The translations under genes were made by a program, and so were the position numbers. The notes under the pieces are model-generated. The model did no database searches. It saw only the letters and a program-made list of their open reading frames with translations, and was not told the origin of the DNA. This document shows, in pieces, positions 37,176 through 50,587 of a stretch of DNA of 64,000 nucleotides; position 1 is the stretch's first letter; each line of letters starts with the position of its first letter. Source of the stretch: Athalassotoga saccharophila (lineage in GTDB: Bacteria > Thermotogota > Thermotogae > Mesoaciditogales > Mesoaciditogaceae); contig NZ_AP019551.1 of assembly GCF_009936215.1 (NCBI RefSeq), forward strand, positions 186,001 through 250,000, in the 5' to 3' direction.

Positions 37176-38228
37176 ATGAAAGAAATCGAAGGGAATGTCC
37201 TTACAGAAAAATCAAAAGATCAGAAAAAATTTCAAAAAGCAGAGATTCTGTTGGAAGTCAAAAATCTTAAAAAATACTTTCCCATAAAGGCAGGAGTGTT
37301 CAGAAGCACTGTCGGATGGGTAAAGGCTGTCGATGACGTTTCGTTCTACATAAAAAAAGGAGAAACTTTAGGCCTTGTCGGAGAGTCGGGATGTGGAAAG
37401 ACCACCGTGGGACAAACCATTCTCAGACTCATAGAACCAACTGGTGGTCATGTCTTCTACAACAACGTCGACCTTTTCAAACTCTCGAAGGGACAGATGA
37501 AAAAGTACAGATCGAAATTACAGATGATCTTTCAAGACCCTTACGGTTCGCTGGATCCGAGGATGAGGGTAAAGGACATAATCGCAGAAGGACTTAAATA
37601 TGCTGGAATGAAAAACAGAAAAGAGAGATACGAAAAGGTCAGAGATTACATGCAAAGGGTTGGGGTATCTCCCACGTACATGAATAGATTTCCACACGAA
37701 TTCAGTGGAGGGCAAAGACAAAGGATAGGGATTGCGAGGGCACTCGTTTTGAATCCGGAACTTATAGTGGCAGATGAGGCTGTCTCCGCGTTAGACGCAT
37801 CGGTACAGGCACAGGTGTTAAATCTTTTGGACGATTTGCAGCAGGAATTTCATCTTACGTATCTGTTTATAGCGCACAATCTAAGCGTTGTAAGGCATGT
37901 AAGTGACAGGGTGGTAGTCATGTATTTGGGGAAGGTAGTTGAGATAGCGAACAAGCACGAGATATTCTCAGACCCTCTGCATCCCTACACGAAGGCGTTG
38001 TTATCTGCCAACCCCATTCCAGATCCGACGGTAAAGAGGAAAGACAGGATAATACTCCAGGGAGATGTGCCAAGTCCTGCGAATCCGCCGTCTGGGTGCA
38101 GGTTCCACACAAGGTGCTGGCTTGCGCAGCCGATATGTGCGCAGGAAGAGCCAAAACTTGAAGAGGTCCATCCCGGTCACTTTGTCGCATGTCACTTTTG
38201 GAAAAACTTAGAAGATCAAAATGATTAA
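37176..38228 (+). CDS. dppF: Peptide ABC transporter ATPase (DppF/OppF type)
   Basis: 350 residues. Walker [10 protein letters not shown], signature [14 protein letters not shown], Walker [12 protein letters not shown], and the oligo_HPY C-terminal domain with cysteines (CRFHTRC, then IC and AC) of the kind that bind an iron-sulfur cluster in Dpp/Opp ATPases. Usually two different ATPases (D and F) are encoded; only this one is present here. The N-terminal ~20 charged residues precede the domain. It follows dppB by 15 nt with GCGGTGAGATC before its ATG. Confidence 0.9.
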
Positions 38229-38241
38229 GGAGGGATGAGAA

Positions 38242-40101
38242 GTGAGAAAGATCTTTGCTTTAATTGCCGTAGTCCTAATAGGTATTTTCTCGATCGGCCT
38301 TGCCGAAAACGTTGTAAATCCCGATACAGTCGTAGAGGATACCTATTACAACATTCAAAGCCTCGATCCCGCATGGGTCTCAGATGTAGGATCTGAAGAG
38401 GCGATAAGCCAATTCTACGATAATCTCATTCAATACGACGGTACTTCGGTGACAAGGTTTTTGCCGATGATCTCCACAAATGTGCCTTCCGTTGAAGATG
38501 GCACGCTTCTCGACAATGGAACAACTTACGTCTTTCACATCAGACAGGGTGTTTACTTCCACAACGGAGATCTTCTAACTCCACAGGACGTTGTGTATTC
38601 TCTCGAAAGGGCTGTCTTATTCGACAGAGCAGGGGGACCTTCATGGATGCTTTCAGAGCCCTTACTTCCAAAGATAGATGGAAGGTACGTTGATTCGATA
38701 ACCCAGTGGGCAGTTAAACTTGCGGGCGTAAAATCGTGGAATGATCTTTTTGCGACCGGAACAAATAATCCGTTAAATGACAAATATAAACAGGCTTTGA
38801 TAGATGCGTTCAATCTTCTCGCGAAGGACTTTGAGATAAAAGGTAATGATGTCATAATTCACCTTCCACACCCTTACGCTCCATTTTTGGCGACACTGGC
38901 GCATTACAACACTTTAACATCAATACTCGATCAACAATGGTGCGCAGCGCACAACGCATGGGATGGCAAGGCTGACGATTGGTGGTACTATCACAATCCA
39001 ACGGTTAACGATGATCCTCTATACAACATTGAAAACGGAACGGGGCCTTTCAAACTCGTCAAATGGAGTGGAGGGCTTCAGATTACATTCGAAAGGTTTG
39101 ACAAATACTGGGCAGGTCCTGCAAAGATAAAATATGGAGTCATAAATGATGTTTCTGAATTCACCACAAGAAAACTTAATCTTACAAGGGGACAGGCAGA
39201 TGTTATAAACGTTTTGGTGCCATATCTAAGTCAGGTCGAAGGGATAGATGGCGTCAAAGTTTACACGCATCTTCCAACTTTTGCAATTGATTCGATATTC
39301 TTCACGTGGAATGTGAACGATCAGGGAGGAAACCCATATCTTGGATCCGGAAAATTAGACGGACATGGCATACCGCCAGACTTTTTCTCGAATAAAGATG
39401 TGAGAATGGCCTTCGAATATCTTTTCCCTTACTCTACATACATAAAGGAAGTATGGCTTGATCAGGCTTTAATTCCAAACGGAGCCGTTCCGAAGGGATT
39501 GCTTGGCTACAATCCGGCCACTCCCACGGCATTTCATCAGGATCTTGCAAAGGCCGCAGAATATTTCAAAAAAGCCTACAATGGAGAATTATGGAAGAAA
39601 GGATTTGAATTCACCGCAGTTTACAACACGGGAAACACTCAAAGACAAACTGCCCTTCAGATGCTTCAATACTACGCGGCGCAGGTTAACCCTAAGTTCA
39701 AAATAAACATAGCAAGTGAATTGTGGGCAACTTATCTGAATGATCTGATGATGAACAAAATCCCGATGTTCATGATCGGATGGACAGGAGGTCCCGATCC
39801 ATACAATTCGGCACAGCCTTTCTACGGATCCGGCGGAGCATTTGGGGCATTCCTCGGCGCATCTTACAGAGAATGGGCAAGGGAACACATGGATCCACTG
39901 CTTTCGGAATCGATGAGCACGACCGATCCGCAGAAACGTGCCGAACTCTTTACCGAAATGAATACAATAGCGCACGATAACGCACTCTTTCTCTTCACAG
40001 ACCAGCAAGAGGGGATAGCGGTTATGCGTTCATGGCTTAAAGGGTGGGAGTACAATCCAATGAACTTTTTGAGGTTGAATTTCTACTCTCTGTCGAAATA
40101 G
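38242..40101 (+). CDS. Family 5 peptide-binding protein (first of three paralogues)
   Basis: 619 residues with a signal peptide ending near LAENVVNP and no lipobox. SBP_bac_5 hallmarks include the N-terminal SLDPAWVSD, the YVFHIRQGVYFHNGDLLTPQ block and GTGPFKLVKW. The start is GTG behind AAGGAGGGATGAGAA. It lies between dppF and dppC, an unusual order. Two further paralogues lie in the same island at 43498 and 48713. The family binds di- or oligopeptides, nickel or sugars; neighbouring prolidase-like enzymes favour peptides. Confidence 0.9.
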   Translation: MRKIFALIAVVLIGIFSIGLAENVVNPDTVVEDTYYNIQSLDPAWVSDVGSEEAISQFYDNLIQYDGTSVTRFLPMISTNVPSVEDGTLLDNGTTYVFHIRQGVYFHNGDLLTPQDVVYSLERAVLFDRAGGPSWMLSEPLLPKIDGRYVDSITQWAVKLAGVKSWNDLFATGTNNPLNDKYKQALIDAFNLLAKDFEIKGNDVIIHLPHPYAPFLATLAHYNTLTSILDQQWCAAHNAWDGKADDWWYYHNPTVNDDPLYNIENGTGPFKLVKWSGGLQITFERFDKYWAGPAKIKYGVINDVSEFTTRKLNLTRGQADVINVLVPYLSQVEGIDGVKVYTHLPTFAIDSIFFTWNVNDQGGNPYLGSGKLDGHGIPPDFFSNKDVRMAFEYLFPYSTYIKEVWLDQALIPNGAVPKGLLGYNPATPTAFHQDLAKAAEYFKKAYNGELWKKGFEFTAVYNTGNTQRQTALQMLQYYAAQVNPKFKINIASELWATYLNDLMMNKIPMFMIGWTGGPDPYNSAQPFYGSGGAFGAFLGASYREWAREHMDPLLSESMSTTDPQKRAELFTEMNTIAHDNALFLFTDQQEGIAVMRSWLKGWEYNPMNFLRLNFYSLSK

Positions 40102-40114
40102 CGGGGTGATTTAG

Positions 40115-40996
40115 ATGGAAGGGATCCTCAGGACAATCAAAAAGATAATGAGAAATGCGACATCCATGTTAGGTGTCCTACTTGTTGCGTTTTTCATAGT
40201 TGTAGCGATTTGTGCTCCATTTCTTGCCCCTCCATCTTACGGGGATCCTTACCAGATACCACGAAGTGGCTGGAGCGTTACGCCCCAGCCACCTTCCGCT
40301 CAAAACCCGTTTGGTACGACCGAAGGTCAGTACGACATATACTACGGAGTTGTATGGGGCACAAGGACGGCCTTCAGAGTAGGACTAATAGTGATAGGTT
40401 TCGCGCTCACGATAGGCATGACAATCGGCACACTTGCGGCTTACTTTGGAGGCTGGATTGATGAATTGCTTATGAGGATAACAGACATCTTTCTTGCATT
40501 TCCATTTCTTGTGGGTGTCATAGTGCTTGTCACAATTCTCGGACCTGGCTTAAATCACGTCATGCTTGCGATGATAATTTTCTACTGGATGACCTTTGCA
40601 AGACTTATAAGAGGGAGTATTCTTCAGGTCAAGGAAAATCAGTATGTAATGGCGGCAGTTGCGCTGGGAGCACCGGGATACGGAATTATTAGCCGTCATC
40701 TTATTCCAAATTCCATATATCCCATAATAATACAGGTTTCGATGGATATGGCAACCGTTCCATTGCTTGCGGCAGCCCTTTCTTTTCTTGGTTTGGGGGC
40801 CCCCGTTGGATACGCAGATTGGGGACAACTTGTGGCCTTTTCAAGAAACTGGATAATTTCCTCAAATGGAGGAAATCCCTTTCAGTTCTGGTACACGATC
40901 TTTTTTCCGGGAATAACCATAGTGCTTTACGCACTTGGTTGGAATTTGCTCGGAGACACTCTAAGGGATATTCTCGATCCAAAAATGCTGATATGA
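40115..40996 (+). CDS. dppC: Dipeptide/oligopeptide ABC transporter permease DppC
   Basis: 293 residues with six predicted helices. NPFGTTEGQYDI matches the conserved HPFGTD-like N-terminal region of DppC. ALGAPGYGIISRHLIPN is the ATPase-contacting EAA loop, and AALSFLGLGAP is the family C-terminal block. The ATG lies behind GGGGTGATTTAG. It pairs with DppB to form the channel. Confidence 0.9.
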   Translation: MEGILRTIKKIMRNATSMLGVLLVAFFIVVAICAPFLAPPSYGDPYQIPRSGWSVTPQPPSAQNPFGTTEGQYDIYYGVVWGTRTAFRVGLIVIGFALTIGMTIGTLAAYFGGWIDELLMRITDIFLAFPFLVGVIVLVTILGPGLNHVMLAMIIFYWMTFARLIRGSILQVKENQYVMAAVALGAPGYGIISRHLIPNSIYPIIIQVSMDMATVPLLAAALSFLGLGAPVGYADWGQLVAFSRNWIISSNGGNPFQFWYTIFFPGITIVLYALGWNLLGDTLRDILDPKMLI

Positions 40997-41008
40997 AGGA
41001 GAAAAAAC

Positions 41009-42220
41009 ATGTACATTTTAAATCACATGAATCTGATCGATGGTAACGGAAATGTGTTGGAAGATGCCGTCATCATAGTCGAAGGAAAGAAAATTCAGGA
41101 CGTTAAAAAAAATGGCGGCCATTTACCGGAAGGCGAGATCATAGACATGGGAGGATACACAATGCTTCCGGGCATGATAGATGCGCATTTGCATTTAGGC
41201 GGAAATGGAGAGCCGAATAGAGAATTCCAGATGCTCAAAGAATTGCTTCCAACGACAACTCTAAAGGCATATGTTAATGCCAGATCCGATCTTATGGCAG
41301 GATTCACGACTGTAAGATCGATGGGAGATAGAGGTTTTCTCGATATAGCCTTAAAGCAGGCCATAGAAAGCGGTTTAGTGGAAGGACCAAGGATGAAAGT
41401 CTCGGGACAGGCCATTTCTATGACCGGAGGCCACGGTGATAGATGGCTTGCGCCTGAGGTAAGTACAAATGGGTACAGCGCCATAGCCGATGGTCCCGAT
41501 GAGGTTAGAAAGGCCGCAAGATATCAACTGAAAATGGGAGCAGATGTTGTCAAGATGATGGCCACGGGCGGTGTCATGTCTGAAGGAGACGAGCCCGGAT
41601 CTCCCCAACTTACCGAAGAAGAGATGAGAGCGGCAGTTGAAGAGGCACACAAAGTCGGAAAAAAAGCGGCCGCCCATGCACAGGGTACGGAAGGCATAAA
41701 AAATGCCATAAGGGCAGGGATCGATTCGATAGAACACGGGATATTCTTGGACGATGAGGCCATTGAGATGATGAAAGAGAAAGGCGTGTTTTTGGTCGCC
41801 ACCCTTGTCGCACCTTACAACATAAAAAAGTATGGACGTGAGGCCGGAATCCCAGAACATGCTGTAAGAAAGACCGAAGAGATAATAGGTTATCACATGG
41901 ATAGTTTTTCGAGGGCATATAAAGCAGGAGTAAAGATAGCAATGGGCACAGATGCAGCAACTCCTTTCAACAGACATGGTGAAAATGCCCAAGAATTGGT
42001 CTTGATGGTGGAAAATGGGGTAAAGCCAATGGATGCGATAATGGCCGCAACGAAGTGGGGATCACAATTGCTCGGCGTGGAAAAGATCGTGGGCACCGTT
42101 GAGGCAGGAAAAGAGGCCGACCTGATAGCCGTAAATGGGGATCCTCTAAAAGATATATCACTTTTGAAAGACGTCAAATTCGTCATGAAAGCCGGGAAAA
42201 TATACAAAGGATTAAGGTGA
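41009..42220 (+). CDS. Prolidase-like metal-dependent amidohydrolase
   Basis: 403 residues. The binuclear metal site is visible: DAHLHLGG (HxH, about 55-62), VVKMMATGG with the bridging Lys, AAAHAQG and SIEHGIF with two His, and MGTDAATP with the catalytic Asp. This is the COG1228 group, which includes Xaa-Pro and Xaa-Arg dipeptidases (prolidase-like). It has no signal peptide and would act on peptides after import. The ATG is behind GAAGGAGAAAAAAC. The next gene is a diverged paralogue. The exact dipeptide preference cannot be read from sequence. Confidence 0.85.
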   Translation: MYILNHMNLIDGNGNVLEDAVIIVEGKKIQDVKKNGGHLPEGEIIDMGGYTMLPGMIDAHLHLGGNGEPNREFQMLKELLPTTTLKAYVNARSDLMAGFTTVRSMGDRGFLDIALKQAIESGLVEGPRMKVSGQAISMTGGHGDRWLAPEVSTNGYSAIADGPDEVRKAARYQLKMGADVVKMMATGGVMSEGDEPGSPQLTEEEMRAAVEEAHKVGKKAAAHAQGTEGIKNAIRAGIDSIEHGIFLDDEAIEMMKEKGVFLVATLVAPYNIKKYGREAGIPEHAVRKTEEIIGYHMDSFSRAYKAGVKIAMGTDAATPFNRHGENAQELVLMVENGVKPMDAIMAATKWGSQLLGVEKIVGTVEAGKEADLIAVNGDPLKDISLLKDVKFVMKAGKIYKGLR

Positions 42221-42225
42221 GCAAT

Positions 42226-43470
42226 ATGAAAATGGCATTTGTCGGAAGGATCATAGATGGTACAGGTAAAGCACCGTTTGATGGCGTGGTCCTTATAGAC
42301 GGCGAGAAGATAGAAAGGGTAGGTCTGATTGGAGAGGTTGAAATTCCTCCAAAAACAAAGACCATAAAGGTCAACAGCGGTACAATTCTTCCGGGTCTTA
42401 TAGATTGCCATGTGCATTTGATGGGAGAACGCACTTTAGACTTCATGAAATCGGCCTTCGAACCTTCAGAATTAAAATCCGTAAGAGCAGCGATGGATTG
42501 CTCAAAATTGTTGGATGCCGGCTACACCTCGGTAAGAGATGTCGGCGGACTTGGCATATATCTTAAACGTGCGATAGAAGAAGGCGAAATAAAAGGGCCA
42601 CGGATTTTATCAGCCTTTAAAATACTTTCACAAACCGGAGGTCATGGAGATATGCATTCCCTTCCTTTAGATGTCGCCGCAAGAGTTGGATTTTCGAGGC
42701 TTTGCGACGGTGCGGATGATTGCAGAAAGGCTGCTCGAGAGCAATTTCGGGAAGGGGCTGATTTCATAAAGATATGTACAACGGGAGGCGTGCTGTCTGA
42801 AAGGGACTTGCCTACCTCCGCTCAATTCACACTCGATGAAATTAGGGCAATAGTCGAGGAAGCACAAAGAGTGGGCTCATTTGTCGCGGCCCATGCCGAA
42901 GGTGCGGAAGGCATAAAAAATGCTATAAGGGCAGGAGTAAAAACAATAGAACACGGAGATTTTATCGATGATGAAGGAATAAAGTTGATGTTAGAAAATG
43001 GCAACATACTAATTCCAACATTTTCAATAGGAGAGCGAATAATCTCTGAAGGAGAAAAATACAAAGTGCCGGAATGGGGCATAAAGAAAATGCACCAATT
43101 ATGGAAGGTCCAAAGCGAAAATTTTAAAAAGGCAAAACGTGCAGGCGTAAAAATAGCTGCCGGAACGGATTTTGGTGGAGGACCTCTTACGCCATTGGGA
43201 GAAAACGCACAAGAATTGGAGTTACTCGTCAGGGAAGGACTTACACCGATGGAAGCGATAGTTGCCGCGACAAAGACGGCATCGGAGGCTTTAAACATGA
43301 AAGATAAAGTCGGAACTTTGGAGGCGGGGAAATTCGCGGATTTGATAGTCGTAGAGGGAGATCCTCTGTCAGATATTTCAACATTGAGAAAGACAGAGAA
43401 TATCAAGGTTGTCGTAAAGGAAGGAAAAATTGAAAAGCATCTGCGATCTAACAAGATAACTATTTCTTAG
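42226..43470 (+). CDS. Prolidase-like metal-dependent amidohydrolase (second)
   Basis: About 414 residues, a paralogue of the preceding enzyme. Metal motifs: DCHVHLMG, FIKICTTGG (Lys), AAHAEGAEG and TIEHGDFID (His), AGTDFGGG (Asp). All ligands are present. Start taken as ATG at 42226 behind AAGGTGAG; a GTG at 42217 is possible and would overlap the previous stop. Two such enzymes in tandem suggest different peptide specificities in one import operon. Confidence 0.85.
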   Translation: MKMAFVGRIIDGTGKAPFDGVVLIDGEKIERVGLIGEVEIPPKTKTIKVNSGTILPGLIDCHVHLMGERTLDFMKSAFEPSELKSVRAAMDCSKLLDAGYTSVRDVGGLGIYLKRAIEEGEIKGPRILSAFKILSQTGGHGDMHSLPLDVAARVGFSRLCDGADDCRKAAREQFREGADFIKICTTGGVLSERDLPTSAQFTLDEIRAIVEEAQRVGSFVAAHAEGAEGIKNAIRAGVKTIEHGDFIDDEGIKLMLENGNILIPTFSIGERIISEGEKYKVPEWGIKKMHQLWKVQSENFKKAKRAGVKIAAGTDFGGGPLTPLGENAQELELLVREGLTPMEAIVAATKTASEALNMKDKVGTLEAGKFADLIVVEGDPLSDISTLRKTENIKVVVKEGKIEKHLRSNKITIS

Positions 43471-43497
43471 AATGCAAATTCTCATGGAGGTGGTTGA

Positions 43498-45354
43498 ATG
43501 AAGTGTAAGTGGTTTTGGGTAACGGGTGTATTGATTTTATTTTCAATTATGGTTTTTGCCGATCTTCCAAATCCCGACACAGTTGTATACGAGCAGGAAA
43601 GAGCGGCGGAAACTCTCGATCCGGCTATGGTTATTGACACAGCATCTGGCGAGGTGCTCGACAACATATACCAAACCCTTATTACCTTTGATGGTACATT
43701 TTTGACACGTTACGTCCCCGTGCTTGCGACAAATGTGCCTTCTGTTAAAGACGGTACAATACTCGATAACGGCATGACCTACGTCTTTCACGTAAGAAAG
43801 GGAGTCCATTTTCAAAATGGAGATCTTCTGACACCTTACGATGTCGTTTATTCATTTGAAAGATTCGTTGTCACTGGAATGGCTGGAGGTAACTCATATG
43901 AACTAACAGAGCCTTTACTTCCTAAAATAGATGGAAATTATGTCGACAATATTTCAAAATGGGCGGTCAAACTCGCAGGCGTCAGATCATGGAATGATTT
44001 ATTTGCCACCGGTACGGCTACGCCAAAAAACGAGGCATACAAAGAAGCCCTTGTAGAGACTTTTGATCTTTTATCCAAAGCGTTTGAAATAAAAGGTGAT
44101 GATGTCATAATACATCTTGCCCATCCTTTTTCATCCGATCTTTTCTTCAATTATATTTCGGGAATAGATATTCTCGACGCGAAATGGGCATCGAACAATG
44201 GTGCCTGGCCTGGAACGGCAGACACATGGTGGAAATATTACAATCCACAGCGTCAGGCAGATCCTCTTTATTCCATAACAAATGGAACAGGACCATTTGA
44301 ATTACAATCATGGACTCAGGGAAGAGAGGTAATTTTGAAGCGTTTTGATAACTACTGGGGAGAACCGGCAAAGATAAAATACGCCGTGATAAAAACAGTT
44401 TCTGAATTTACAACGAGAAAGTTAGATTTGATGCGAGGAGATGCCGACATAATCTCTGTTCCTCCAGCCTACATTCCACAGGTTGAAAATATTCAGGGAG
44501 TGAAAGTTTCTGAAAATATACCAGAACTTGCACAATATCAACTTTCTTTTGCATTCAGTGTAGATCCACACAGTAAATACATTTACTCAGGAAAATTGGA
44601 CGGAAATGGCATTCCACCAGATTTCTTTTCAAATTTGGACGTGAGAAAGGGTTTTGAATATCTTTTCCCGCATCAAATGTATGTAAAAGATGTCTGGAAT
44701 GGACTTGGAATAGTGCCTAACAGCCCGATATGTACAGGTCTTATAGGATATGATCCCGATATCCCTGCGTACCATCAGGATCTTGCGAAGGCCGCCGAAT
44801 ATTTCAAGAAAGCCTACAACGGAGAGGTGTGGAAGAAGGGATTCAAATTCGCCATAATTTACAATTCCACAGATCCAACAATGCAGGAAGCGTGCCAAAT
44901 GTTAAGCGCCTATGCCCAGCAAGTAAATCCAAAATTCAATGTTGTACCTGTGCCGGTGTTATGGCAAACACTTGTTGGAGAATTTCTTGGCAATGATCTC
45001 CCGATGGTAGCCCTTGACTGGTTTGCAAATACTTCCTACGATCGCGTGTATGGTTATCTTGATTCTTCTGGAGTTTACGGCGAGGCACTTGGTCAGAATT
45101 TCCGTGATTTTGCAAAGGAGGAATTCGATCCTCTTATAAATGCGACAATCTCTGCGACTTCAAATAACGTTGCAGAAAAACTTTACAAAGAGATAAGTTT
45201 AAAAACTTACGAAGATGCCATTATGATATGGCTGATTCAACCATCACGTCAGTTAGTTTACAGAGAGTGGCTTCATGGTCTTTATCCAACGAATTACAAT
45301 CCGAGTTATGCCAAAGATCTTCATTTTTATGGTTTATACAAATCATCTAACTGA
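43498..45354 (+). CDS. Family 5 peptide-binding protein (second paralogue)
   Basis: 618 residues, signal peptide about 1-20 without lipobox. It shares LPNPDTVVYEQERAAETLDPA, YVFHVRKGVHFQNGDLLTPYD and GTGPFELQSW with the other two copies. The segment coding KLDGNGIPPDFFSNLDVRKG is nearly identical at the DNA level with the 48713 paralogue. ATG behind ATGGAGGTGGTTGA. It follows the amidohydrolase genes, with no permease or ATPase of its own, so it probably feeds the DppBCF complex. Confidence 0.9.
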   Translation: MKCKWFWVTGVLILFSIMVFADLPNPDTVVYEQERAAETLDPAMVIDTASGEVLDNIYQTLITFDGTFLTRYVPVLATNVPSVKDGTILDNGMTYVFHVRKGVHFQNGDLLTPYDVVYSFERFVVTGMAGGNSYELTEPLLPKIDGNYVDNISKWAVKLAGVRSWNDLFATGTATPKNEAYKEALVETFDLLSKAFEIKGDDVIIHLAHPFSSDLFFNYISGIDILDAKWASNNGAWPGTADTWWKYYNPQRQADPLYSITNGTGPFELQSWTQGREVILKRFDNYWGEPAKIKYAVIKTVSEFTTRKLDLMRGDADIISVPPAYIPQVENIQGVKVSENIPELAQYQLSFAFSVDPHSKYIYSGKLDGNGIPPDFFSNLDVRKGFEYLFPHQMYVKDVWNGLGIVPNSPICTGLIGYDPDIPAYHQDLAKAAEYFKKAYNGEVWKKGFKFAIIYNSTDPTMQEACQMLSAYAQQVNPKFNVVPVPVLWQTLVGEFLGNDLPMVALDWFANTSYDRVYGYLDSSGVYGEALGQNFRDFAKEEFDPLINATISATSNNVAEKLYKEISLKTYEDAIMIWLIQPSRQLVYREWLHGLYPTNYNPSYAKDLHFYGLYKSSN

Positions 45355-45376
45355 TCGATATTAAGGAGGTGATTTT

Positions 45377-47227
45377 ATGGCAGATCAAAAAGATAGCGAG
45401 ATAAGACCGGCAGAGGCTATAGCAAAAGAATCGGATAAAAAACTCAAAAAAGCTCTAAGTCTTCAGGATTTATTTTTTCTTTCAATGGGAGGGATAATAG
45501 GTTCTGGATGGCTGTTAGGAGTTGCAGGCGCTGCCAGTACGGCAGGACCTGCATCGATACTATCATGGATAATAGGAGGAGTCATAGTCTTATTCATAGC
45601 CCTGACCTTTGCAGAAATTTCGGGCGCGATTCCGAAAAGCGGCGCAATTGTGAGGTATCCCCATCTGGCTTATGGTGGTTACACAGGATACATAATAGGG
45701 TGGGCTTACATGTTGAGTGCAGTAACGGTACCAACTGTTGAAGCCGAAGCGGTACTAACCTATGCTTCAACCTATGTTCCGGGTCTTTTCCACACGGTAT
45801 CCGGTGTATCGGTTTTGACCCCTGTCGGTATACTGGCCGGGGTAGTCCTGCTGATCGCATTCTTCTTTTTAAACTGGTTCGGTATAAGATTTCTTGGCAA
45901 ATTCAATTCGGTCGCTACATGGTGGAAATTCATCATTCCAGCACTTACATTTATCTTTCTGCTGTTCATGTTCAACAAATCAAATTTGGTCTCTCACGGA
46001 GGATTTTTCCCGTTGGGAGTCGGAAGCATGTTTTACGCGATCCCATCGGCGGGCATAGTTTTTTCTTACCTTGGATTCAGGCAAGCGCTTGAATTCGGTG
46101 GAGAAGCAAAAAATCCTCAAAGAGATGTTCCAAGAGCAACTGTGTATTCTGTGCTTGCCGCGATAGCACTTTACACACTTTTGCAGGTTGCTTTTTTGGG
46201 AGCGATAAAATGGCCTAACGGCACAACATGGTCTACATTGACATCCTCCTCTTTAGGTTCGGCGCCATTTTTCACAGAACTACAATACAGCGGGATAGCC
46301 TTATTCATAGCGTTTTCTTACTTTTTGCTCATTGACGCATGGATTTCTCCCAGCGGAACTGGCTGGATATACCTCGGTAACTCCGCAAGAGTACTGTATG
46401 GTATAGCTGCAGATGGATATTTTCCATCTTCATTACTAAAAATTCACAGCAAAACGAGGATACCATACATTGCTCTAATAGCGAGTCTTGTAATCGGAGT
46501 CATCTTCTTTTTACCATTTCCATCATGGTATCTTTTCGTTGGCTTCATCTCCAGTGCCACGGTTTTAACTTATATAATGGGGCCGCTGGCATTGATAACG
46601 TTTAGAAAACATGCTCCTCAACTTCACAGACCATTTCGTTTGCCTTACGCCTCAATAATATCTCCTGTTGCCTTTGTTGGAGCCGCTCTTATCGTTTACT
46701 GGTCCGGAATAACAACACTTACAATGATCTTCTACACAACATTTATAGGAATTCCGATATTTTATTTCCTTTACGCCTCCAAAAAATTAAATCTTTCGAA
46801 AACTTTCGCTTACACGGTAGGGTTGATAGAGTTGGCCATAGCGATAGTTGCTTTGGTGGTCAATTACATGTACGTACTTTATCCGCCTACCAAAGAAAGT
46901 ATGGAGACAAAGACAGAAATATTCCTTTCAACTCTGGCAGTCATGTCGGGTATTGTACTTTTATTCACGGCGATAACATCGTTAAAAGTTTCTGAAAAAG
47001 ATAAACAGATGTTTTCAAGTTCCTATTGGTTGCTTTCTTTGATGATAGTGACTGAACTATTTTCGTATTTTGGGGCATTTGGAAATGACGTTTTAATTCC
47101 ATTTCCATGGGATACGATCGTTATGATAGTTGTCTATTCTGTGATATACGTTTTTGCGCTTAGAGGTGGACACAACACAGAAGATCTAAGTGTTATAGTA
47201 GAAGAACAGAAAGACTCAAACCTTTAA
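45377..47227 (+). CDS. APC-family amino acid permease
   Basis: 616 residues with about 14 hydrophobic segments and a charged ~40-residue N-terminus. The first helix block SLQDLFFLSMGGIIGSGWLLG carries the GxG motif of the APC superfamily, and EISGAIPKSGAIVRYPHLAYG is the conserved loop after helix 2. The extra C-terminal helices (about 500-600) make it longer than the usual ~450-500. It likely takes up or exchanges amino acids; coupling with peptide hydrolysis (export of a surplus amino acid) is a possible role. ATG behind AAGGAGGTGATTTT. Confidence 0.85.
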   Translation: MADQKDSEIRPAEAIAKESDKKLKKALSLQDLFFLSMGGIIGSGWLLGVAGAASTAGPASILSWIIGGVIVLFIALTFAEISGAIPKSGAIVRYPHLAYGGYTGYIIGWAYMLSAVTVPTVEAEAVLTYASTYVPGLFHTVSGVSVLTPVGILAGVVLLIAFFFLNWFGIRFLGKFNSVATWWKFIIPALTFIFLLFMFNKSNLVSHGGFFPLGVGSMFYAIPSAGIVFSYLGFRQALEFGGEAKNPQRDVPRATVYSVLAAIALYTLLQVAFLGAIKWPNGTTWSTLTSSSLGSAPFFTELQYSGIALFIAFSYFLLIDAWISPSGTGWIYLGNSARVLYGIAADGYFPSSLLKIHSKTRIPYIALIASLVIGVIFFLPFPSWYLFVGFISSATVLTYIMGPLALITFRKHAPQLHRPFRLPYASIISPVAFVGAALIVYWSGITTLTMIFYTTFIGIPIFYFLYASKKLNLSKTFAYTVGLIELAIAIVALVVNYMYVLYPPTKESMETKTEIFLSTLAVMSGIVLLFTAITSLKVSEKDKQMFSSSYWLLSLMIVTELFSYFGAFGNDVLIPFPWDTIVMIVVYSVIYVFALRGGHNTEDLSVIVEEQKDSNL

Positions 47228-47308
47228 TTCTGATGGCCGGGGTAATTTTAGGAGAAAGGTTTTCGAGGGAAGAAATTGATAATCTAAAATCTACACAAGG
47301 AGGCTAAA

Positions 47309-48463
47309 ATGAAATTACTTTTCAAAAACGCGAATGTTTTTCCAATTACGTCCAAACCATTCAAAGGAGACGTGCTTGTCAAAGATTCCAAAATATACAA
47401 AATTGGTGAATCGATAAAAAAGGACAAAGATACAGAGGTAATAGACCTCGAGGGAAAATATTTGATTCCCGGCTTCATAGATGCCCATTCCCACATAGGG
47501 CTCAAAGAAGAAAGTGTCAACGACCCGGTTGGGTCAGATGTAAATGAAGTCACAGATCCTATCACGGCCGATGTTAAAGCCATTGATGGATTCAACCCTG
47601 AGGATGATGCCATAGACAGGGCACTCAGTGGCGGAGTCACAACGGTAATGATAGTGCCCGGAAGTGCGAATCCAATCGGAGGGCAAGGAGCGATAATAAA
47701 GTTCAAATCAAAGATAGTAAATGAGATGATAATCAAAGAGCCCGCGGGATTGAAGATGGCCTTCGGTGAAAACCCAAAAAGGGTTTACGGTGATCAAAAA
47801 AAGACTCCATCGACACGTTTGGGAGTGGCATCTGTCATAAGATCTTATTTTACGAGAGTACAGGATTACATGAAAAAGAAGGAGATCGCACAGAAGGATG
47901 GCAGGCCATTCACAGAAAGGGATCTCAAACTCGAAGCGGGAGAAAAAGTCCTTAAAGGAGAGATTCCGGCCAGAATTCATGCCCATCGTTACGATGACAT
48001 ATTGACTGCAACAAGGATAGCGGAGGAATTTGGATTTAGATTCGTCATAGAGCACGGGACAGAAGGGTACAAGATAGCCGATTATTTAAAAGAGAAAGGG
48101 ATACCCGTAGTTGTAGGGCCTTTGATGACCTTCAGGACGAAAAGAGAGTTAAAAGATATGACTATGGATTCGATAAAGATATTGAATGAGAAGGGAGTTT
48201 TGACGGCTCTCATGTGCGATCATCCGGTAATTCCTCTCGAGTATGCGTCTATTCAGGCCGCGAGTGCTCTAAGGTATGGTGCGAAGGAAGAGGATTTGCT
48301 AAAGATGCTTACGATAAATCCCGCCAGAATACTTGGCATTTCAGACAGGGTAGGGTCCATTGAAGAGGGAAAGGATGCAGACCTTGTGATATGGAGCGGT
48401 CATCCATTCGATGCCAGATCAAAAGTCGAAAGTATATACATAGAGGGAATAAAGATTATGTGA
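47309..48463 (+). CDS. Amidohydrolase of the imidazolonepropionase-like group
   Basis: 384 residues. Metal-site motifs: DAHSHIGL (about 60-67), RIHAHRYDD, VIEHGTEGYK and MCDHPVIPL with the final Asp. A large insertion (about 125-195, with GENPKRVYGD and an Arg/Lys-rich helix) is typical of a COG1228 subgroup different from the two prolidase-like enzymes upstream. It is cytoplasmic. The substrate is unknown; peptide, hydantoin-like or cyclic amide hydrolysis would each fit the setting. ATG behind AAGGAGGCTAAA. Confidence 0.8.
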   Translation: MKLLFKNANVFPITSKPFKGDVLVKDSKIYKIGESIKKDKDTEVIDLEGKYLIPGFIDAHSHIGLKEESVNDPVGSDVNEVTDPITADVKAIDGFNPEDDAIDRALSGGVTTVMIVPGSANPIGGQGAIIKFKSKIVNEMIIKEPAGLKMAFGENPKRVYGDQKKTPSTRLGVASVIRSYFTRVQDYMKKKEIAQKDGRPFTERDLKLEAGEKVLKGEIPARIHAHRYDDILTATRIAEEFGFRFVIEHGTEGYKIADYLKEKGIPVVVGPLMTFRTKRELKDMTMDSIKILNEKGVLTALMCDHPVIPLEYASIQAASALRYGAKEEDLLKMLTINPARILGISDRVGSIEEGKDADLVIWSGHPFDARSKVESIYIEGIKIM

Positions 48464-48552
48464 TTAAAGTATAATTAAAATTTAATTTTGTAAAAATCAT
48501 ATATTAATGTTTATAGGTTAATATACTTTCAAAGTTGCAAAAGAGGTAAAAA

Positions 48553-48639
48553 ATGCGAATAATTTCGATTTTGGTAATGACAAAAATGACAAATGAGAGA
48601 AGAGATCATAGAGTACTGCCCGGTGGAGCAGTGCCTTGA
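48553..48639 (+). CDS. Putative attenuator leader peptide (28 residues)
   Basis: ATG at 48553 behind AGAGGTAAAAA; the peptide begins MRIISILVMTKMTNERRD and ends HRVLPGGAVP, stopping at TGA 48637-48639. Ile, Leu and Val codons are dense in the first eight residues. The last codons contain the first two pairing segments of the following attenuator, as in classic amino-acid operon leaders. The peptide itself has no recognised homologue; the coding call rests on the ribosome binding site and on the RNA layout. Confidence 0.55.
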   Translation: MRIISILVMTKMTNERRDHRVLPGGAVP

Positions 48640-48694
48640 TCTTTGGGGTATAGATTCCACCGGGCCACATTGAAAAATGTGGCCCTTTTTATTT
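48613..48694 (+). promoter_or_regulatory. Classic-topology transcription attenuator before the third binding-protein gene
   Basis: Three competing hairpins can be drawn. 1:2 is GTACTGC (48613-48619) with GCAGTGC (48628-48634). 2:3 is GCCCGGTGGA (48618-48627) with TCCACCGGGC (48656-48665), a perfect 10-bp antiterminator. 3:4 is GGGCCACATT (48662-48671) with AATGTGGCCC (48676-48685) around a GAAA loop, followed by TTTTTATTTT, a textbook terminator. Segments 1 and 2 lie in the leader reading frame, so ribosome position would choose the outcome. Confidence 0.75.
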
Positions 48695-48712
48695 TAGATT
48701 GGAGGTAAGAAG

Positions 48713-50587
48713 ATGAAAAGATTTTTTGTGTTTTCAACGATCCTTTTCTTCATCGTATCCATGGGAATGTCCCAAAATGTCGTAAACCCAGACACAATAG
48801 TCTACGAAGAGCCAGGACCTTTTCAATCTTTAGATCCGGCCTGGGAGTATGACACCACATCTGCCGAGGTTATATGGCAACTTTACGATTCCCTGCTTCA
48901 ATATGATGGGACATCGACAACAAAACTGCTTCCAATGCTGTCGACAAATGTTCCATCTGTTGCAGATGGAACGATTCTTGACAACGGTAAAACTTATGTA
49001 TTTCACATCAGACAGGGTGTCTATTTTCACAATGGAGACCTTTTAACTCCTCAGGATGTGGTCTATTCTCTTGAAAGATTGGTTCTTCTCGATTACAGCG
49101 GAGGGCCGTCATGGATGCTTGCCCAACCATTGCTTCCCATGATAGACGGTCATTACGTTTCGACGATCGTCCAGGAAGTTGCAAAGGAACTCGATCTTAG
49201 CGATCCTCTAAATTACACGAGTCTAAGTTCTCTCGGCATTTTCGCAACTGGCACAAAAGTCCCGATCAACGACAAATACAAGCAGGCCCTGATAAATGCC
49301 TTTAACCTGCTTGCAAGTGATTTCGAAATTAAAGGAAATGACGTAATAATTCATCTTCCACAACCATTCGAACCTTTCCTTTACACACTTGCAAAAGGTG
49401 GAATATGCGAATCTGTCATCCTCGATGAAAAATGGTGCGCGGAAAATAAGGCATGGGACGGAAAGGCTGATGACTGGTGGTATTACCATAATCCCACACT
49501 TAGCCAAGATACCCTCACGAATATAGAAAACGGAACCGGACCGTATTTCATGAAATATTACATACCCAACAGAGAAATAGCCTTTCAAAGATTTGATAAA
49601 TACTGGGCAGGACCAGCCCCAACAAAGTATGCGGTCATAAAGTATGTAAATGAATTCACGACAAGATTGCTCGATCTGGAATCTGGCCAGGCTGACGCGA
49701 TTTACGTACCCGTCGAAAACTTATCCGAGGTGCAAAATGACAAGAACATAAAAGTCTCGGTCTATCCCCAACTTTCCGTTTATGAACTGAATTTCACGTG
49801 GAATTTAGTCAGTGATGGCAATCCCTACATTGGATCGGGAAAATTGGACGGAAACGGCATTCCACCGGATTTCTTCTCAAATTTGGACGTGAGAAAGGGT
49901 TTTGAATATCTCTTTCCTTACAGCAAGTACATAAAAGAGGCTTATAATAATCTCGCATTTCAACCAAACGGCGCGATAATGAAAGGAATGTTTGGATACA
50001 GCCAGAATTTGCCGGAATATGATCAAGATCTTTCAAAAGCCGTTGAGTATTTCAAAAAGGCATACAACGGAGAGTTATGGAAAAAGGGATTTAAGTTCTC
50101 TGCAATATACGAAAGTGGAGACACAACCGGGCAGTTAGCACTTACAGCGCTAAGCAATGCCGCAAGGGAGATCAATCCCAAATTCCAAATAAATGTTGTC
50201 GGAGAGTTGTGGCCAAACCTTCTCAGCGATAGTCTTTCTTTCAAATTACCGATCTTCACGATGGGATATCTTGCCGATTATCCAGATCCTTATGATCTTG
50301 CGTATGCATATTATTCTTCAACGGGCATATTTGGAGCATTCATAGGTCAAAATTTTGTCAGTTTTGCCCAAAAGGATCTCGATCCGCTTGTAAATGATCT
50401 CCTTACCACCTCTAACCTTTCAAAGCGTGCTGAAATAGTCAAACAACTTGAAGAGTTAGATTACGATAACGCACTCTATATCTGGACAGATCAACCATTC
50501 GGAATATTCGTAAGCCGTACTTGGCTAAAAGGATGGTATCCGAATGGAATAAGACCGGGAATAGACTTCTACTCTCTCTCAAAATAA
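48713..50587 (+). CDS. Family 5 peptide-binding protein (third paralogue)
   Basis: 624 residues with a signal peptide (about 1-20) and no lipobox. It carries the same blocks as its paralogues (YVFHIRQGVYFHNGDLLTPQ, FDKYWAGPA, KLDGNGIPPDFFSNLDVRKG). A short insertion (VAKELDLSDPLNYTSLSSL) near residue 160 separates it from the first copy. ATG behind TTGGAGGTAAGAAG. It is transcribed with its own attenuated leader, so its level can be set apart from the rest of the island. A bidirectional terminator follows. Confidence 0.9.
   Translation: MKRFFVFSTILFFIVSMGMSQNVVNPDTIVYEEPGPFQSLDPAWEYDTTSAEVIWQLYDSLLQYDGTSTTKLLPMLSTNVPSVADGTILDNGKTYVFHIRQGVYFHNGDLLTPQDVVYSLERLVLLDYSGGPSWMLAQPLLPMIDGHYVSTIVQEVAKELDLSDPLNYTSLSSLGIFATGTKVPINDKYKQALINAFNLLASDFEIKGNDVIIHLPQPFEPFLYTLAKGGICESVILDEKWCAENKAWDGKADDWWYYHNPTLSQDTLTNIENGTGPYFMKYYIPNREIAFQRFDKYWAGPAPTKYAVIKYVNEFTTRLLDLESGQADAIYVPVENLSEVQNDKNIKVSVYPQLSVYELNFTWNLVSDGNPYIGSGKLDGNGIPPDFFSNLDVRKGFEYLFPYSKYIKEAYNNLAFQPNGAIMKGMFGYSQNLPEYDQDLSKAVEYFKKAYNGELWKKGFKFSAIYESGDTTGQLALTALSNAAREINPKFQINVVGELWPNLLSDSLSFKLPIFTMGYLADYPDPYDLAYAYYSSTGIFGAFIGQNFVSFAQKDLDPLVNDLLTTSNLSKRAEIVKQLEELDYDNALYIWTDQPFGIFVSRTWLKGWYPNGIRPGIDFYSLSK

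Follow-up and report, generated by a model that had tools for sequence, protein, structure and literature searches.

Control of transcription through a translated leader peptide is a textbook mechanism in enteric bacteria and has also been described in Actinobacteria and in some Firmicutes. The trp, his, ilv, leu and thr attenuators of the Proteobacteria combine control codons clustered in a leader ORF, an antiterminator that competes with an intrinsic terminator, and a stop codon whose position lets a ribosome that completes the leader promote termination. As of 2013, Rfam covered amino-acid attenuators for His, Leu, Thr and Trp only (PMC3766115), and leader peptides coding for His are known from bacilli (hisZ/hisS*), from Clostridium difficile and from the lysQ permease gene of Lactococcus lactis (PMC2965389, PMC4833913). 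The orf34-speF system of Salmonella senses arginine through consecutive Arg codons of its leader ORF (PMC6386406), and a lysine riboswitch precedes the lysine operon in other Thermotogae (PMC5584792). Here, we report a locus in the genome of Athalassotoga saccharophila NAS-01, a thermoacidophile of the order Mesoaciditogales in the phylum Thermotogota (PMC7163026). The window that was analysed, 64,000 nucleotides in length, is G000:C1:186001-250000, and all positions below refer to it. The general reading of the locus as a ribosome-mediated transcription attenuator, put forward already in the first-pass annotation, is well supported by a leader ORF, competing helices and compensatory changes in relatives. 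Judging from sequence and modelled folding, the attenuator probably reads the charging of arginine (possibly histidine) tRNA and controls one SBP_bac_5 gene.

The leader ORF occupies 48553-48639 on the plus strand, as do all features of the element, and runs over 28 codons from ATG to TGA to encode MRIISILVMTKMTNERRDHRVLPGGAVP; its Shine-Dalgarno sequence is GAGG at 48543-48546. Both frame and ribosome binding site were correctly located in the first-pass annotation. A copy in a sister species (genome G002) encodes MRIISILAITNERRHHRVLPGGAVP, which differs from the window leader by an in-frame gap of 9 nt, with the start codon, ribosome binding site and frame all retained. Codons 3-8 specify Ile-Ile-Ser-Ile-Leu-Val (48559-48576) and lie upstream of the first RNA segment. 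The putative control codons, AGA AGA GAT CAT AGA at 48598-48612, encode Arg-Arg-Asp-His-Arg, are followed in segment 1 by Val-Leu, and were assigned by their position in paralogous leaders and by folding with a stalled ribosome. In the sister species Arg-Arg-His-His-Arg is found at the equivalent position in the 5′ arm of the hairpin, and arginine as the signal is read from the codons of just two species, A. saccharophila and G002. Another frame holds an alternative ORF of 26 amino acids (48593-48673), for which the role of a small peptide gene was weighed and then discarded, as it is not retained in the paralogs.

The control-codon cluster overlaps segment 1 (48601-48619, AGAGATCA.T.AG.A.GTACTGC), the 5′ arm of a long hairpin whose 3′ arm, segment 1′ (48628-48644), holds the leader stop codon (48637-48639). 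The assignment of these arms draws on the fold and on the comparison of native with swapped arms. Of this 1:1′ hairpin the first-pass annotation had seen the 7-bp part GTACTGC/GCAGTGC (48613-48619 with 48628-48634), which is present, and had missed about ten further pairs below it (48601-48608 with 48637-48644 and 48610-48611 with 48635-48636), so that the total comes to about 17 pairs over 48601-48644 with bulges between. Segment 2 (GCCCGGTGGA, 48618-48627) is apical in this hairpin and provides the 5′ arm of an antiterminator, a perfect 10-bp helix with segment 3 (TCCACCGGGC, 48656-48665). The intrinsic terminator GGGCCACATT-GAAA-AATGTGGCCC-TTTTT follows at 48662-48690, with a perfect stem of 10 bp (48662-48671 with 48676-48685), a GAAA loop and then TTTTTATTTT. 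The GGGC at 48662-48665 is common to segment 3 and to the terminator 5′ arm, so that antiterminator and terminator compete. The short hairpin, the two 10-bp helices and the common GGGC were each verified base by base. The topology of the trp, his and ilv attenuators, which had been assigned to the locus, does not hold in the strict sense, as segment 2, rather than forming the 3′ arm in a 1:2 hairpin, lies mostly in the apical loop of the hairpin at 48601-48644, flanked by both of its arms. The 160-nt region folds with -53.4 kcal/mol (z = -5.67; none of 200 shuffles equal), and this score together with the repeated copies in the genome rules out a chance structure.

A DNA search of the whole genome revealed three further copies, and thus four in total. 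They are located upstream of dapF, the diaminopimelate epimerase gene (L002), of a SBP_bac_3 gene for a lysine/arginine/ornithine-type binding protein (L003) and of an amino-acid permease gene (L004). The dapF gene heads the operon dapF-dapA-dapB-dapD-aspartokinase-aminotransferase-amidohydrolase. All four copies retain the terminator together with GCCCGGTG[AG]A and T[TC]CACCGGGC, and in every one of them an ORF equipped with a ribosome binding site stops at the same TGA. The leader ORFs of the three extra copies (MIGLNYVKLLENKKYVKQPPGGAEV, MKRFSIIENRKHVKQPPGEAAS and MNLRFELNLNRKHDKYLPGEGADI) carry Lys, Arg and His codons in the same leader position as the control codons of the window leader. 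A covariance model (R1) built from the four copies found the element in 10 of 10 family genomes, before dapF, aspartokinase, SBP_bac_3 and amino-acid permease genes, the SBP_bac_5 orthologue of G002, and a gene for a 400-aa protein that is closest to Xaa-Pro dipeptidase with a score under the model cut-off. Lys-coded leaders are found before the dapF operon of the own genome and before aspartokinase in two relatives. In 19 family leaders with Lys/Arg/His codons, these three amino acids account for 50% of the eight codons that precede Pro-Gly-Gly; their share is 18% and 16% when the other frames are read, and 11% in the proteins encoded downstream. Ile, Leu and Val make up 85% of the equivalent stretch in five leaders before the dipeptidase-like gene (L065, L066, L073, L078 and L079; KIIYVVLIL, EVVYIVLIL). 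These counts indicate that the codons of the cassette are swapped with the downstream gene on a constant RNA scaffold. By sequence, the window locus belongs to a family in which a single scaffold would be fitted with Lys, Arg/His or Ile/Leu/Val codons according to the gene that follows.

The long 1:1′ hairpin is missing from the five dipeptidase-type leaders, for which this part of the scheme fails, and the default state without translation may therefore differ. In L060 and L079 the stop is shifted 12 nt upstream, with TGA directly after Pro-Gly-Gly or Pro-Ala-Gly-Gly. The SBP_bac_3 leader L052 (G003) is intact, and most of segment 3 and of the terminator 5′ arm is gone (TTTCACATCAAAGATGTGG), by either deletion or assembly error.

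Pro-Pro-Gly or Pro-Gly-Gly is nearly constant among the family leaders, and Pro-Pro motifs are known ribosome stallers (PMC8129111). Such constancy would suit a nascent peptide arrested at Pro-(Pro)-Gly-Gly that responds to free Arg/Lys or to EF-P status and not to tRNA charging. However, a stall at Pro-Gly-Gly would cover segment 2 and so favour termination, and the part of the peptide that depends on the gene is the control codons. The constant Pro-Gly-Gly codons are segment 2 itself, and its pairing with segment 3 explains their constancy; we consider arrest of this kind unlikely.

For the preferred reading, attenuation through tRNA charging, the position of the ribosome was modelled by refolding the RNA downstream of a ribosome that was set codon by codon. 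The ribosome was taken to cover 15 nt, counted from the first base in the P site, footprints of 12 and 18 nt were also tried, and folding was done at 37 and 55°C; a published footprint is one codon plus about 12 nt (PMC4833913). With the A site at any codon up to Thr at 48589, which includes the early Ile, Leu and Val codons, the 1:1′ hairpin is closed and no 2:3 helix forms. The hairpin is open and 2:3 forms when the A site lies at about 48595-48613, from Glu at 48595 through Arg/Arg/Asp/His/Arg to the Arg at 48610, and once past Val at 48613 the ribosome masks segment 2. With the smaller or the larger footprint this interval moves by one codon only, and the outcome is the same at both temperatures. 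A scan of eight Lys/Arg/His leaders showed that in each of them segment 2 ceases to be accessible one codon past the last conserved Arg or Lys, and in the Ile/Leu/Val leader L078 one codon past the last Ile before Pro. As segment 2 is freed just near AGA-AGA-GAT-CAT-AGA, the amino acid sensed would be Arg, perhaps His.

A different signal had been proposed in the first-pass annotation, by which shortage of Ile, Leu or Val stalls the ribosome on codons 3-8 and raises peptide uptake. The proposal draws on the composition of these codons, on the conservation of MRIISIL in the sister species and on a related family scaffold that is truly Ile/Leu/Val-coded before the Xaa-Pro-dipeptidase-like gene. 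Yet a stall at 48559-48576 leaves 1:1′ intact and the terminator formed, and P(2:3) is 0.00 whichever of the three footprints and the two temperatures is chosen. The true Ile/Leu/Val leaders place their codons directly before Pro-Ala-Gly-Gly, where the window leader has Arg/His and its paralogs Lys/Arg/His, and the codons of segment 1 at which a stall frees segment 2 are not Ile, Leu or Val codons as in an ilv-type attenuator. We thus abandon branched-chain amino acids as the signal, which is a distinctly unlikely one at this locus.

With arginine as the signal, the attenuator would operate as follows. When Arg-tRNA is ample, the ribosome would reach the UGA and cover segment 2, the terminator would form and transcription would stop. 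A ribosome stalled on AGA-AGA-GAT-CAT-AGA would open 1:1′ and leave segment 2 free, which could then pair with segment 3 before segment 4 is made and take the four lowest pairs of the terminator, giving readthrough. If there is no translation, 1:1′ would form and termination would be the default. At equilibrium in the full RNA, with the ribosome on the control codons, the terminator foot is present in about 77-100% of molecules, because a shortened 2:3 helix and the terminator can coexist. Antitermination must consequently be kinetic, with 2:3 forming first, and we infer that such an order in the nascent RNA is plausible.

Both the coding frame and the stems of the leaders show signs of conservation. 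Between close pairs of leaders start and stop are kept and pN/pS in the leader frame is 0.48-0.50, compared to 1.24 and 0.92 in the shifted frames, all from small numbers. The native 1:1′ arms pair with -20.3 kcal/mol and swapped partners with -15.3 kcal/mol, and the corresponding values for 2:3 are -20.9 and -18.6; in neither case was any of 5000 permutations as good, and the terminator arms differ in the same direction as 1:1′. In an alignment of 14 leaders, 95.1% of the cells in paired columns are paired as opposed to just 26-45% when the structure is slid, four pairs are altered on both sides, and none of 500 shuffles reaches the observed covariation score. The family leaders are homologous and not independent, and the permutation tests ignore relatedness, for which reason we take the shuffle tests as supporting and not conclusive. 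The covariation analysis of homologous leaders that was suggested along with the first description of the locus has thus come out in its favour, compensatory stem changes being found in relatives.

A conserved scaffold sequence and structure could also belong to a small-molecule riboswitch, such as a new aptamer for basic amino acids, consisting of 1:1′ and a pseudoknot from its loop to the downstream segment, with the ORF being incidental. A pseudoknot of segment 2 with segment 3 can be drawn since segment 2 is located in the hairpin loop, and the family is devoid of the lysine riboswitch: covariance-model matches to RF00168 were found in 0 of 10 family genomes (own genome and nine others) and in 31 of 61 class genomes. 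Against such an aptamer, the ribosome binding site, start, frame and stop of the ORF are kept, with the same stop shared among copies and with pN/pS near 0.5 in frame only, and the codons follow the downstream gene while segments 2, 3 and 4 stay. The window locus and 12 related loci also had no match at gathering score to Rfam attenuator, T-box or riboswitch families. A riboswitch of this kind was dropped as very unlikely. BjrC68 was rejected as an Rfam identity, at 22.5 bits with a cut-off of 39.

The gene behind the attenuator (48713-50587, Shine-Dalgarno GGAGG at 48701-48705) encodes a 624-aa SBP_bac_5 solute-binding protein, of peptide/oligopeptide type by family (Pfam PF00496, 186 bits, E 1.4e-54), which agrees with the earlier description of an attenuator before a gene of the peptide-binding type. 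Its best NCBIfam matches are Opp5A/Opp4A, all under cut-off, and members of SBP_bac_5 bind sugars or nickel too. Further upstream, 37176-48463 harbours an Opp-type ATPase, two more SBP_bac_5 genes, an ABC permease, three amidohydrolases and an amino-acid permease, a cluster consistent with uptake and breakdown of peptides and amino acids. A leader of this kind is absent from the more distant SBP_bac_5 homologue in Mesoaciditoga sp. ARK-11 (L088). That the hairpins are a plain terminator between two transcription units and without regulatory use is hardly credible, since the terminator, though intergenic and 3′ of the amidohydrolase gene 47309-48463 on the same strand, ends about 23 nt before the SBP start codon with its own leader ORF ahead, and the same layout recurs, with four loci in this genome and copies in 10 of 10 family genomes.

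Beyond the family, the weak matches proved to be leaders that share the general layout and carry other codons, and these may be analogues of the Mesoaciditogaceae leaders. Arg codons (IRRRxxxRWV and similar) are found before argG in families f2, f4 and f9, an Arg-coded leader before argJ in f7, runs of His before hisZ in f2, f4, f10 and f11, and Arg/His or His codons before SBP_bac_3 genes in f7. In genome G012 a Lys-rich leader precedes asd, and an Arg-coded leader (KVNRRIKEPVG) precedes an operon of OppB/OppC-type permease genes, which is a second case of the peptide-transporter type parallel to the window locus. Codons match gene function for the lysine operon and aspartokinase among the paralogous leaders and for argG, argJ and hisZ among the analogues. 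An Arg-leader model matched 28 and a His-leader model 36 of 103 class genomes (E <= 0.01), in part through cross-hits to Mesoaciditogaceae leaders. The name hisZ is based on one family-model match under cut-off (L063, 91.5 bits) and a Pfam histidyl-tRNA-synthetase-like domain, and the remaining hisZ loci were recognised from their resemblance in sequence to L063. The weak model matches L076, L077, L082, L117, L120, L156, L163, L165 and L166 were plain terminators or unconvincing.

Some loci deserve separate mention. Citrate synthase genes in one genus of f7 (G043, G053, G073, G074 and G075) are preceded by a short frame that reads NNQPEPK or NNEPEQK and a GGCCACAC terminator hairpin (L155, L157, L161 and L167, also L147 and L152), by sequence a possible Gln/Glu-coded attenuator. 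At L067 (G048:C10:53301-53494), upstream of hisZ, two tandem copies of the His leader hairpin flank a run of N, which is probably an assembly artefact. L125 (G096) has a His-run leader and terminator followed by an ORF unlike hisZ; the leader may be an orphan, or hisZ may be broken.

Compared to the trp, his, ilv, leu and thr attenuators, with which it shares the control-codon cluster, the competing helices and the placing of the stop, the window locus belongs to another phylum, uses Arg/His codons (Lys in paralogs), controls a binding-protein gene and has segment 2 within the 1:1′ hairpin rather than as its 3′ arm. The His leaders of bacilli and Lactococcus are likewise leader-peptide attenuators outside the Proteobacteria, one of them before a transporter gene, but they are His-specific and from Firmicutes, whereas the window leader is Arg/His-coded before a solute-binding protein; the Thermotogota hisZ leaders look like their nearest analogues. 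The Salmonella orf34-speF leader resembles the window leader in sensing arginine by consecutive Arg codons, but it works through Rho-dependent termination, RNase G and mRNA folding without an intrinsic 3:4 terminator and controls ornithine decarboxylase (PMC6386406). The nested topology with Lys/Arg specificities had no description in the open papers searched, and neither a Thermotogota attenuator nor a Lys-coded one was found in the open-access literature, outside of which most subscription papers lie and an earlier mention in Thermotogae is possible. In its mechanism the window locus itself is of a known kind, set apart by the nested topology and the Lys/Arg specificities, and the codon-exchanged set across the phylum is of more interest than this single locus. 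We are inclined to see there a phylum-wide set of nested-hairpin attenuators for amino-acid synthesis and uptake with exchangeable codons (Lys, Arg, His, Ile/Leu/Val and perhaps Gln/Glu), which would include the first Lys- and Arg-coded ones with intrinsic terminators and in which the Lys copy would replace the lysine riboswitch on the same operon in Mesoaciditogaceae. Copies with matching codons allow the cargo of transporters to be predicted, here peptides yielding arginine or histidine. The lysine riboswitch (L-box, RF00168) is an aptamer without an ORF that governs an operon of the dapF-dapA-dapB-dapD-lysC type in other Thermotogota (PMC5584792), whereas the dapF operon of A. saccharophila is found behind a Lys-coded leader ORF. 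With a riboswitch in many Thermotogota and a leader peptide in Mesoaciditogaceae, the lysine operon would provide a natural case of the replacement of one RNA sensor by another.
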